Assembly: GCF_900155985.1 (NCBI RefSeq)
Contig: NZ_FTMA01000006.1
Location: 62,001-126,000, forward strand
Reading direction: 5' to 3'
Source of the DNA: Maribacter ulvicola
GTDB taxonomy: Bacteria > Bacteroidota > Bacteroidia > Flavobacteriales > Flavobacteriaceae
Length of the DNA: 64,000 nt
Made by a program: the position numbers and the translations under genes. The notes under the pieces are model-generated. The model ran no database searches, was not told the DNA's origin, and worked only from the letters and a program-made list of their open reading frames with translations. The first letter of the stretch is position 1. The number at the start of each line of letters is the position of its first letter. Shown here piece by piece: positions 44,194 to 47,092 of this stretch.

Positions 44194-45171
44194 TTATTTG
44201 TATAAAACCTTTTTAACAGCATCAATCACATCTTTATGATTTGGCAACCACTCTTCTAATAACACAGGAGAATAGGGAGCTGGCGTATCTGCAGTGTTTA
44301 TCTTAACAACAGGAGCATCTAAATAATCAAACGCATGGGCTTGTATATGATAGGTAATTTCAGTTGCTACGTTACCAAACGGCCAAGCTTCTTCTAAAAC
44401 TACTAAACGGTTTGTCTTCTTTACAGATTTTAATATAGCCTCATAGTCCAAAGGCTTTACCGTACGCAAATCAATGACCTCACAACTAATTCCTTCTTTC
44501 TCTAATTCATCTGCAGCTTTATCCGCTTCTTTAATAATCTTACCAAAAGAAACGATGGTAACATCTTTACCTTCTCTACGAATATCTGCAACACCTAGCG
44601 GAATGGTGTAGTCACCCTCTGGCACTTCTCCTTTGTCACCATACATTTGTTCAGACTCCATGAAAATTACAGGGTCATTATCACGTATAGCCGCTTTTAA
44701 CAATCCTTTTGCATCTGCCGGGTTAGATGGTACAACCACTTTTAATCCCGGACAGTTAGCATACCAACTCTCAAAAGCTTGTGAGTGCGTTGCCGCCAAT
44801 TGACCTGCTGATGCGGTAGGACCTCTAAATACAATAGGACAAGGAAATTGCCCACCAGACATCTGTCTGATCTTCGCTGCATTATTTATAATTTGATCTA
44901 TACCTACCAATGCAAAGTTGAAGGTCATAAATTCTATAATAGGTCTATTACCGGTCATAGTTGAACCAACACCAATTCCTGCAAAACCAAGTTCTGATAT
45001 TGGAGTGTCAATAACTCTCTTAGGACCAAACTCGTCCAACATCCCTTTAGAAGCCTTATATGCGCCATTGTATTCCGCTACCTCTTCACCCATCAAATAG
45101 ATAGATTCATCCTTCCTCATTTCTTCGGACATGGCCTCGGCTATTGCTTGCCTAAATTGTAGTGTTTTCAT
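44194..45171 (-). CDS. pdhB: pyruvate dehydrogenase E1 component, beta subunit
   Basis: The 325-residue thiamine-diphosphate E1 beta chain forms the alpha2beta2 E1 that decarboxylates pyruvate. It has AIAEAMSEEMRKDESIYLMG, the GIGVGSTMTGNRPIIEFMT stretch and ATHSQAFESWYANCPGLKV. The alpha subunit and E2 are not in the window, so pdhB is on its own here. It is divergent from etfBA, and the 174-base spacer carries the etf palindrome. Confidence 0.93.
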   Translation of the reverse strand: MKTLQFRQAIAEAMSEEMRKDESIYLMGEEVAEYNGAYKASKGMLDEFGPKRVIDTPISELGFAGIGVGSTMTGNRPIIEFMTFNFALVGIDQIINNAAKIRQMSGGQFPCPIVFRGPTASAGQLAATHSQAFESWYANCPGLKVVVPSNPADAKGLLKAAIRDNDPVIFMESEQMYGDKGEVPEGDYTIPLGVADIRREGKDVTIVSFGKIIKEADKAADELEKEGISCEVIDLRTVKPLDYEAILKSVKKTNRLVVLEEAWPFGNVATEITYHIQAHAFDYLDAPVVKINTADTPAPYSPVLLEEWLPNHKDVIDAVKKVLYK

Positions 45172-45269
45172 GTTATGGTAAATATTATTCTTTGTTATAT
45201 GCTAGAAAGCAAGCAAAAATAGGAAATATAATGTCAAAAAATAGAATGCCCTATTTAAAAAAAGTTATA

Positions 45270-45298
45270 AAATTTACTATGCATGCATAGTAAATTTG
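45270..45298 (+). promoter_or_regulatory. 28-bp palindromic operator overlapping the etfB -7 element
   Basis: Bases 45270-45297 are a perfect palindrome whose core reads TACTATGCATGCATAGTA. Its right end TAAATTTG (45291-45298) is a perfect match to the -7 consensus TAnnTTTG. Transcription would start near 45305, giving a 40-base leader before etfB. A repressor bound here would block the polymerase. The site resembles MarR-type operators found near fatty-acid oxidation genes in this phylum, which fits etf as the partner of acyl-CoA dehydrogenase. Confidence 0.6.
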
Positions 45299-45345
45299 AA
45301 TTTTATTAGCTATCTTCGTAACCATTGATATAAAGTTTTTTACTC

Positions 45346-46086
45346 ATGAAGATATTAGTTTGTATAAGTAATGTTCCAGATACCACATCCAAAATAAACT
45401 TTACGGATGGCGACACCAAATTTGACACCAATGGTGTACAGTTTGTAATTAACCCGAACGACGAATTTGGATTAACAAGAGCTATGTGGTTTAAAGAAAA
45501 ACAAGGTGCCATAGTACATATTGCTACTGTTGGCGGCCCAAGTGTTGAACCTACAATGCGTAAAGCACTTGCCATTGGCGCTGATGAAGCTTTTAGAATT
45601 AATACGGAACCTACAGACGGATTTTCCGTTGCCAAACAATTGGCAGAAGTTGTTAAAAACGGTAGTTACGATTTAGTTATTGGCGGTAGAGAATCTATTG
45701 ATTACAACGGCGGAATGGTACCAGGAATCTTAGCTTCTTTGACAAATATGAATTTTATCAATTCTTGTATTAATCTTGAAATTGACGGAAATAATGTTAC
45801 TGCGGTCAGAGAAATTGATGGCGGAAAAGAAAAATTGAGCAGCGCCCTACCCTTAGTAGTAGGCGGTCAAAAAGGTCTTGTAGAAGAAAGTGATCTTCGT
45901 ATTCCCAATATGCGAGGTATTATGATGGCGAGAAAGAAAGCGCTAACAGTTGTTGAACCTATAGACGCTATAAAAGCTACCGAAGACAAGAAATTCGACA
46001 AACCGGCTCCAAAAGGTCAAGTTAAACTTGCCGACAGTGTAGACCAATTGGTTGATCTATTGCATAATGAAGCCAAAGTCATTTAA
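45346..46086 (+). CDS. etfB: electron transfer flavoprotein subunit beta
   Basis: Together with EtfA this FAD/AMP protein takes electrons from acyl-CoA dehydrogenases. The 246 residues include the start ILVCISNVPDTTSKINF, then GGRESIDYNGGMVPGILA and the C-terminal ALPLVVGGQKGLVEESDLRI typical of this subunit. It is followed by etfA after 37 bases. Confidence 0.95.
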   Translation: MKILVCISNVPDTTSKINFTDGDTKFDTNGVQFVINPNDEFGLTRAMWFKEKQGAIVHIATVGGPSVEPTMRKALAIGADEAFRINTEPTDGFSVAKQLAEVVKNGSYDLVIGGRESIDYNGGMVPGILASLTNMNFINSCINLEIDGNNVTAVREIDGGKEKLSSALPLVVGGQKGLVEESDLRIPNMRGIMMARKKALTVVEPIDAIKATEDKKFDKPAPKGQVKLADSVDQLVDLLHNEAKVI

Positions 46087-46123: not shown

Positions 46124-47092
46124 ATGTCAGTTTTAGTATATACAGAATCAGAACAAGGAAAATTTAAAAAGAATGCGTACGAGGTTGCCTCTTACGCTTC
46201 TGCAGTTGCCCAAATGATGGGTACCACAGTTACCGCTATTGCTTTCAATAGTACTGAAAACGAATCGCTTGGTGAATACGGAGTTTCAAAAGTAATCAAC
46301 GTAAAAGATGATGCCCTAGCAACTTTTAATGCTGGATCATATGCCTCTTCCATTGCCGAAGCCGTTAAGAGCACAGAAGCAAAAGTGATTATTTTAAGCT
46401 CTAGCACGGATACGAAGTATTTAGCACCATTATTATCTGCAAAATTATCTGCAGGTTACGCACCTAACGTAGTGCAGGCTCCAGATAGCACTTCGCCGTT
46501 TACGGTAAAAAGAACCGTTTTCAGTAACAAAGGTTTTGCACACACCCAAATAGATACCGATATTAAAATAGTAGGAGTATCCAATAATGCTTTTGGTGCT
46601 CATGAAAACAAAACAGCTATTTCTGTTGATGAAATAGACGCCACGACAGACGCTACGACCAACGACACCAAATCTCTTGAAATAGATAAAGTTGTTGGCA
46701 AGGCTACTATTGCAGATGCCGATATCGTTGTTTCCGCAGGTAGAGGAATGAAAGGTCCAGAAAACTGGGGAATGATTGAAGAGTTAGCCGATGTATTAGG
46801 TGCTGCAACTGCTTGTTCCAAACCGGTATCCGACCTAGGGTGGAGACCTCATGGTGAGCACGTAGGACAAACAGGTAAACCTGTAGCAAGCAATCTTTAC
46901 ATTGCAATAGGCATTTCTGGTGCCATTCAACATTTAGCAGGTGTGAGTGCGTCAAAAACCAAAGTTGTTATTAATAATGACCCAGAAGCACCATTTTTTA
47001 AGGCAGCAGATTACGGAATTGTTGGAGACGCCTTTGAAGTAGTTCCTCAATTGATTGAAAAATTAAAGGCTTTTAAGGCACAAAACGGTTAA
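46124..47092 (+). CDS. etfA: electron transfer flavoprotein subunit alpha
   Basis: The 322-residue FAD-binding subunit. The C-terminal FAD motifs are GRGMKGPENWGMIEELADVL, CSKPVSDLGWRPHGEHVG and IGISGAIQHLAGV. Coupled with etfB, it is probably expressed with fatty-acid oxidation functions and quinone-linked oxidoreductase activity. A terminator follows at 47120-47165. Confidence 0.95.
   Translation: MSVLVYTESEQGKFKKNAYEVASYASAVAQMMGTTVTAIAFNSTENESLGEYGVSKVINVKDDALATFNAGSYASSIAEAVKSTEAKVIILSSSTDTKYLAPLLSAKLSAGYAPNVVQAPDSTSPFTVKRTVFSNKGFAHTQIDTDIKIVGVSNNAFGAHENKTAISVDEIDATTDATTNDTKSLEIDKVVGKATIADADIVVSAGRGMKGPENWGMIEELADVLGAATACSKPVSDLGWRPHGEHVGQTGKPVASNLYIAIGISGAIQHLAGVSASKTKVVINNDPEAPFFKAADYGIVGDAFEVVPQLIEKLKAFKAQNG

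Follow-up and report, generated by a model that had tools for sequence, protein, structure and literature searches.

A palindrome upstream of etfBA in Maribacter ulvicola as the probable operator of a MarR-type regulator of fatty-acid oxidation

Described systems and the candidate regulator

FabT of Streptococcus, a member of the MarR family, deals with fatty-acid metabolism in that it controls fatty-acid synthesis with acyl-ACP as co-repressor, and FadR of Escherichia coli belongs to the GntR family. Studies of regulation in Bacteroidota have mostly dealt with the use of polysaccharides. As summarized in PMC9594313, CouR of Rhodopseudomonas palustris and Rhodococcus jostii is a MarR homodimer that recognizes a palindromic operator (its two binding sequences measure 29 and 31 bp) and represses p-coumarate catabolism until a CoA thioester, p-coumaroyl-CoA, releases it. 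FadR of Sulfolobus acidocaldarius, as outlined in PMC6449355, regulates fatty acid metabolism and is not of the E. coli type; it is an archaeal protein of the TetR family. The regulon proposed here would work in the manner of E. coli FadR as presented in PMC9329746, although both the protein family and the operator differ; moreover, it would include etfBA, and the gene for its regulator lies inside a fad cluster. Among the literature matches listed from openly licensed papers (CC0, CC BY, CC BY-SA), no description of the motif or of the regulon was found, and a search of the openly licensed literature with four forms of the motif letters returned only an unrelated nematode match. The predicted regulator and operator would be a new pair of a known kind, and the comparative support for them is broad.

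The bacterium is probably marine. The proposed regulator is encoded by a marR gene on the minus strand of the M. ulvicola genome (G000, contig C12:34725-35159), where it heads marR-fadB-fadA-fadE. The protein has about 145 aa and carries a MarR winged-helix domain recognized by profiles above the Pfam cut-offs (PF01047, 42 bits, cut-off 24.6; PF12802, 29 bits, cut-off 27). All nine listed NCBIfam equivalogs of named MarR proteins (HpaR, OhrR, BilQ, SlyA, Saro_0803 and others) stayed under their cut-offs, the best reaching 42.9 bits against 200, and neither a GntR winged helix nor a FadR effector domain was matched at E 0.001, where only MarR, SarA/Rot and general winged-helix profiles appeared. 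On the structure model (pLDDT 90.8, pTM 0.80), we are confident that the predicted protein has the MarR fold. The fold comparison listed 50 entries with Z from 16.6 to 14.8, such as MepR, MarR, SlyA, HpaR, CouR and FabT, the scores being tied over many rows and the ligand not being identifiable from the fold. Among solved structures, the closest in sequence is a regulator of organic hydroperoxide resistance (6.8e-8). As is proposed for the M. ulvicola protein, CouR combines a winged-helix MarR fold with a palindromic operator (R. jostii CouR, 5cyv: Z 15.0, rmsd 3.3, 141 residues aligned), but its sequence similarity to the regulator is weak and no better than that of other MarR proteins (5cyv, E 3.6e-5; 6c28, E 0.0067). 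The same fold is found in FabT (6jbx: Z 15.0, rmsd 2.7, 140 aligned). Since the model resembles both CouR and FabT, which respond to CoA or ACP thioesters, among many tied others, an acyl-CoA inducer is plausible by analogy.

The palindrome and the promoters around it

Direct reading of the window (the whole stretch of M. ulvicola DNA analyzed here, 64,000 nucleotides) identified AAATTTACTATGCATGCATAGTAAATTT at 45270-45297 as a perfect 28-bp palindrome without a spacer, all 14 pairs matching; base 45298 (G) lies outside it. The preliminary description had reported such a palindrome in the upstream region of etfB, which is hereby confirmed. The site is intergenic. On one side lies a divergent pdhB-like gene for pyruvate dehydrogenase E1 beta (44194..45171, minus strand, ATG at 45171; NF006667, 492 bits, cut-off 321); on the other, 48 bp past the end of the palindrome, begins etfB for the 246-aa beta subunit of electron transfer flavoprotein (45346..46086, plus strand, ATG at 45346; Pfam ETF PF01012, 1.7e-24). 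The presumed second gene of the etfB operon is etfA (46124..47092, plus strand; Pfam ETF_alpha PF00766 and ETF PF01012), which encodes the 322-aa alpha subunit.

Symmetry, a chance test and conservation mark the palindrome as the proposed operator of the MarR regulator. Its 18-base core, TACTATGCATGCATAGTA (45275-45292), occurs only once in the window at up to three mismatches (0.05 expected). The inner 12 bases, TATGCATGCATA (45278..45289), form the near-invariant heart of the putative operator: in 104 sites (80 before marR and 24 before etfB), all positions are invariant but the central two, which are A or G and T or C. A palindrome arising by chance was rejected, with only 6e-4 perfect palindromes of at least 28 bp expected per 64 kb and 0.04 per 4.51 Mb; in 100 first-order Markov simulations of the window, palindromes reached 22 bp at most, and the runner-up in the real window has 20 bp. 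Perfect self-complementarity would also be expected of a structural element, such as a terminator, a cruciform or an RNA hairpin, but this palindrome sits between divergent genes, has no loop and is A+T-rich, and it is the letters, not symmetry alone, that are conserved before unrelated genes. With this conservation pattern, and with expectation and simulation both speaking against chance, we consider a structural or accidental origin scarcely credible.

The flavobacterial -7 consensus is given as TAnnTTTG in PMC9723704. The preliminary description had the palindrome lying over the -7 element of etfB, namely TAAATTTG (45291..45298, plus strand), which starts 7 bases past the palindrome centre (+7). 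This placement is probably wrong. Only 7 of the 24 genus genomes keep TAAATTTG intact, whereas TATCTTCG (45311..45318, plus strand), 20 bases further downstream, starts at +27 and is identical in all 24, with five of the six fixed letters of TAnnTTTG. Because of this difference in conservation, TATCTTCG is most likely the better -7 box of etfB, and the operator would cover the -33/spacer region, a position that still suits a repressor; TAAATTTG is probably in the main the right outer arm of the operator. It is quite unlikely that TAAATTTG is the etfB -7 box after all, with the operator directly over it. TAAATTTG does fit TAnnTTTG perfectly in the window, keeps five or six of the six fixed letters in 20 of the 24 genus genomes (a fraction of 0.83), and has a counterpart in another genus (L293), where a perfect TATTTTTG stands at +7 as well as a perfect box at +27. 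However, six other genomes of the same family place TAnnTTTG upstream of etfB at +27 to +30 (five perfect, one a one-letter variant), and the 80 marR promoters described below have a perfect box at +17 or +18 without exception. In two etfB loci of other families (L177, L182), only TATATTAG at +20/+21 or other one-letter variants nearer the centre were seen, and neither place fits well.

TATTTTTG is also the candidate -7 element of the divergent pdhB-like gene (45214..45221, minus strand). It was found in all 24 genus genomes, 69 or 70 bases ahead of the palindrome centre, and in the window 48 bp separate it from the palindrome. As pdhB thus has a conserved -7 candidate of its own (45221-45214), its direct control by the palindrome is thought unlikely.

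Conservation before marR and etfB and the proposed mechanism

A named-species scan was carried out with the MarR protein, and the best 80 of 544 loci were kept; they include Maribacter (the closest), Cellulophaga, Zobellia, Arenibacter, Eudoraea, Muricauda and Robiginitalea. The motif is present upstream of marR in all of these best 80 of 544 loci, 24-41 bases before the start of the match, with 0-4 mismatches to the 18-base core (two mismatches in 68 loci) and with the exact inner 12-mer in 73. A perfect TAnnTTTG follows in every case, starting 17 (68 loci) or 18 (12 loci) bases past the centre. The gene order is fadD-marR-fadB-fadA-fadE in 74 of the 80, fadD-marR-fadB in four and marR-fadB-fadA-fadE in two.

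The site was also found in more distant genomes. Fifteen genomes from other families of the order yielded 13 MarR matches, and the seven strongest have an upstream site (six with 1-4 mismatches to an 18-base form, one an exact 12-mer 120 bases away); for the six weaker matches in these families, no upstream site was found. In a class-wide set of 148 genomes, 73 have a marR match at a profile E of 1e-15 or better. Of these 73, 67 belong to other orders, and the best-scoring 24 of the 67 loci were read. When 200 bases upstream were scanned (shuffled control, 1.9%), the motif appeared at up to two mismatches in 23 of these best 24, seven times exactly, 0-47 bases upstream of marR. Moreover, fadB adjoins marR in 23 of the 24, and the only locus without fadB is the only one without the motif. 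It is very likely, as judged from these comparisons, that the MarR regulon extends past the genus to other orders of Bacteroidia.

An order-wide set of 118 genomes was further divided by the presence of a marR orthologue (E 1e-20 or better), which was found in 78. The exact 12-mer occurs in 66 of these 78 genomes, 12 being without it, vs 3 of the 40 without marR (Fisher p 1e-16, a value inflated by relatedness and small genomes: many of the 40 have 0.6 Mb, and differences in genome size and relatedness make up part of the contrast). These data bear on whether a different regulator, for instance of the TetR type, binds the site and marR is merely another of its targets. In favor of this idea, three genomes (G034, G035 and G065) carry one 12-mer each and no marR match. 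However, the site goes with marR even outside the order, the 12-mer tracks the presence of marR, and MarR proteins usually have a site in front of their own gene; accordingly, we give another regulator little chance.

Before etfB, the site is well conserved at close range. EtfB matches were obtained in 37 of 40 genomes, that of M. ulvicola included, and 30 loci were kept and read. The 25 genus genomes gave 24 etfB loci, the remaining genome (83% complete) having no EtfB match. All 24 contain the site, with its core 52-55 bases from the ATG; compared with the 18-base core, 18 sites are identical, four have one change and two have two. Exact 12-mers were also seen 55-66 bases before etfB in six further genomes of the same family, and 50 and 69 bases before etfB in two genomes of other families (G026 and G028). 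Since only one of six other-family etfB loci has a site at up to three mismatches (L049, three mismatches, 225 bases away), the predicted control of etfB by the regulator is not universal.

Taken with these conservation patterns, the palindrome is very probably the operator through which a MarR repressor would control fatty-acid oxidation along with its own gene. It would be bound by a MarR dimer whose gene lies in a beta-oxidation cluster at another place in the genome, and one and the same regulator would occupy every motif site, so that acyl-CoA dehydrogenase and its electron acceptor ETF would be switched together. The palindrome centre lies 17 bases before the -7 box at marR and 27 at etfB; these distances differ by 10 bases, roughly a turn of the helix, which would put the regulator on the same face of the DNA at both promoters. 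Seated just upstream of the -7 box, the dimer may block RNA polymerase. FadD would convert fatty acids to acyl-CoA, which would bind the regulator and release it, and the pathway and its regulator would both be on when fat is present. The preliminary description had spoken of a repressor site for etfBA; the distribution of the motif supports an operator, and the repressive effect is what we infer. An activator, or a dual-acting protein, in place of a plain repressor seems unlikely, though less so than the other alternatives considered here. The etfB operator, centred 27 bases upstream of the proposed -7 box, is in a position open to an activator, and no clear TTG -33 element could be seen by eye at etfB. 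On the other hand, the site stands right beside the -7 box in all of the best 80 of 544 marR loci, and in most loci of the thioesterase gene only 15-19 bases lie between the end of the core and the start codon; both positions suit blocking.

Candidate regulon members in M. ulvicola and its genus

The 18-base core was searched at up to three mismatches in the M. ulvicola genome, and eight places were found vs one for the reversed control. Five of the eight are in target promoters: those of etfBA; of marR in the cluster fadD, then marR-fadB-fadA-fadE; of a fadH-like gene of the 2,4-dienoyl-CoA reductase/OYE type; of a divergent pair with the motif between its members, one for a 4HBT thioesterase and the other nitronate monooxygenase-like; and of a TonB-dependent receptor (929 aa) with a GDSL-type protein after it, next to glmS (L012 2970-7406, contig C5, operator at L012 7484). 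The sixth copy has an inner 12-mer with one mismatch and precedes a FabH-like KASIII gene adjoining a gcvP-like gene, labelled by eye (L019, C5:1374519). Targets were named by Pfam and NCBIfam profiles: FadE reaches the NCBIfam cut-off and the thiolase FadA a subfamily cut-off, and FadB and FadH were named by domain, their best NCBIfam equivalogs being under cut-off. The motif thus stands before core beta-oxidation genes (marR-fadB-fadA-fadE, fadH-like, etfBA and thioesterase).

The exact 12-mer is present in all 26 genus genomes in 3-7 copies each, 128 in total vs 2 for the control. With these counts, the eight places against one and the recurrence of the targets, a motif unique to etfB or scattered at random was rejected. 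In M. ulvicola and in its relatives alike, copies precede genes of acyl-CoA oxidation and the gene of a MarR-type regulator. This bears out the suggestion made at the outset that etfBA belongs to a fatty-acid-oxidation regulon, and comparative genomics supports this predicted membership well.

Looser searches were not useful as genome-wide tools. The 12-mer at up to one mismatch gave 11 places in the M. ulvicola genome vs 13 in the control (six are the listed targets and five are not before listed lipid genes), and TATGCNNGCATA, the 12-mer with a free centre, gave 8 vs 7. Because such counts are close to the control, weak single sites are untrustworthy and context matters; the weak matches L006-L008, L017 and L020-L023 were left out of the regulon members. 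In one of them (L023 1501-1512, C12:407252), the one-mismatch TATGCATGTATA lies at the start of an ORF that resembles an ECF sigma factor by eye, and this may be chance.

The four exact 12-mer sites of M. ulvicola were read separately from those of its relatives. Fifteen other genus genomes have 69 sites, and 60 regions with 61 sites were read; the eight left out are six etfB sites, covered in the comparison above, and two of one genome (G013). A gene follows 60 of the 61 sites, and 58 of these 60 fall into seven recurrent targets: marR (14), TonB receptor (13), thioesterase/nitronate monooxygenase (10), KASIII (8), etfB (6), fadH (4) and pyruvate carboxylase (3). The remaining three are before a GDSL homologue, before another TonB-type receptor and inside a gene (L240). 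Four sites (L203, L207, L216 and L224) overlap a program-listed open frame yet precede the assigned target gene. For KASIII and pyruvate carboxylase, one copy each was profiled and the others were assigned from their first residues.

Of the 61 sites read, 13 precede that receptor, which makes the TonB receptor/GDSL pair a candidate for lipid uptake. Enzymes of the KASIII type usually serve in synthesis. Neither KASIII nor pyruvate carboxylase is an obvious beta-oxidation gene, which counts against reading the targets as one regulon. The FabH-like KASIII gene beside the gcvP-like gene carries the putative operator in L019 and in eight genus loci. The exact 12-mer lies 116-118 bases upstream of pyruvate carboxylase genes in three genus genomes (L193, L206 and L226), and this target was not found among the M. 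ulvicola sites examined.

The chances are slightly better than even that MarR with its TATGCATGCATA operator is a class-wide switch of fatty-acid oxidation in Bacteroidia, a lineage for which the openly licensed papers listed named no regulator of this sort; in the genus, the switch would also control the TonB receptor/GDSL-lipase pair, KASIII and some pyruvate carboxylase genes. If so, the receptor/lipase pair of the genus would be an uptake system for fatty acids or lipids. A regulator with its operator for the breakdown of fat, recognizable by sequence in many Bacteroidia genomes, would provide a directly testable regulon, and it suggests lipid roles for poorly annotated neighbours, including the TonB receptor/GDSL pair, KASIII and the nitronate monooxygenase-like protein. 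In addition, an acyl-CoA-responsive promoter part would become available if the inducer is confirmed.

Motif contexts in more distant genomes are mixed. Some fit the lipid theme: L179 has an OmpP1/FadL-like protein (Pfam Toluene_X at 28.0 bits, slightly below its cut-off of 29.7), L285 an enoyl-reductase-like SDR and L272 an esterase. For others (L173, L176 and L275), no connection with lipids is evident. In family f11, two genomes (L172 and L272) have the motif directly before an esterase-like gene, profiled for L272 and judged similar by eye for L172; one of these genomes is G034, which has no marR match.

Tandem sites were also observed before the TonB receptor or marR, at 2989/3016 in L242, 1501/1584 in L178 and 1501/1529 in L271, with spacings of 27-28 or 83 bases. 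Such tandem operators hint at cooperative binding of the regulator in some genomes.
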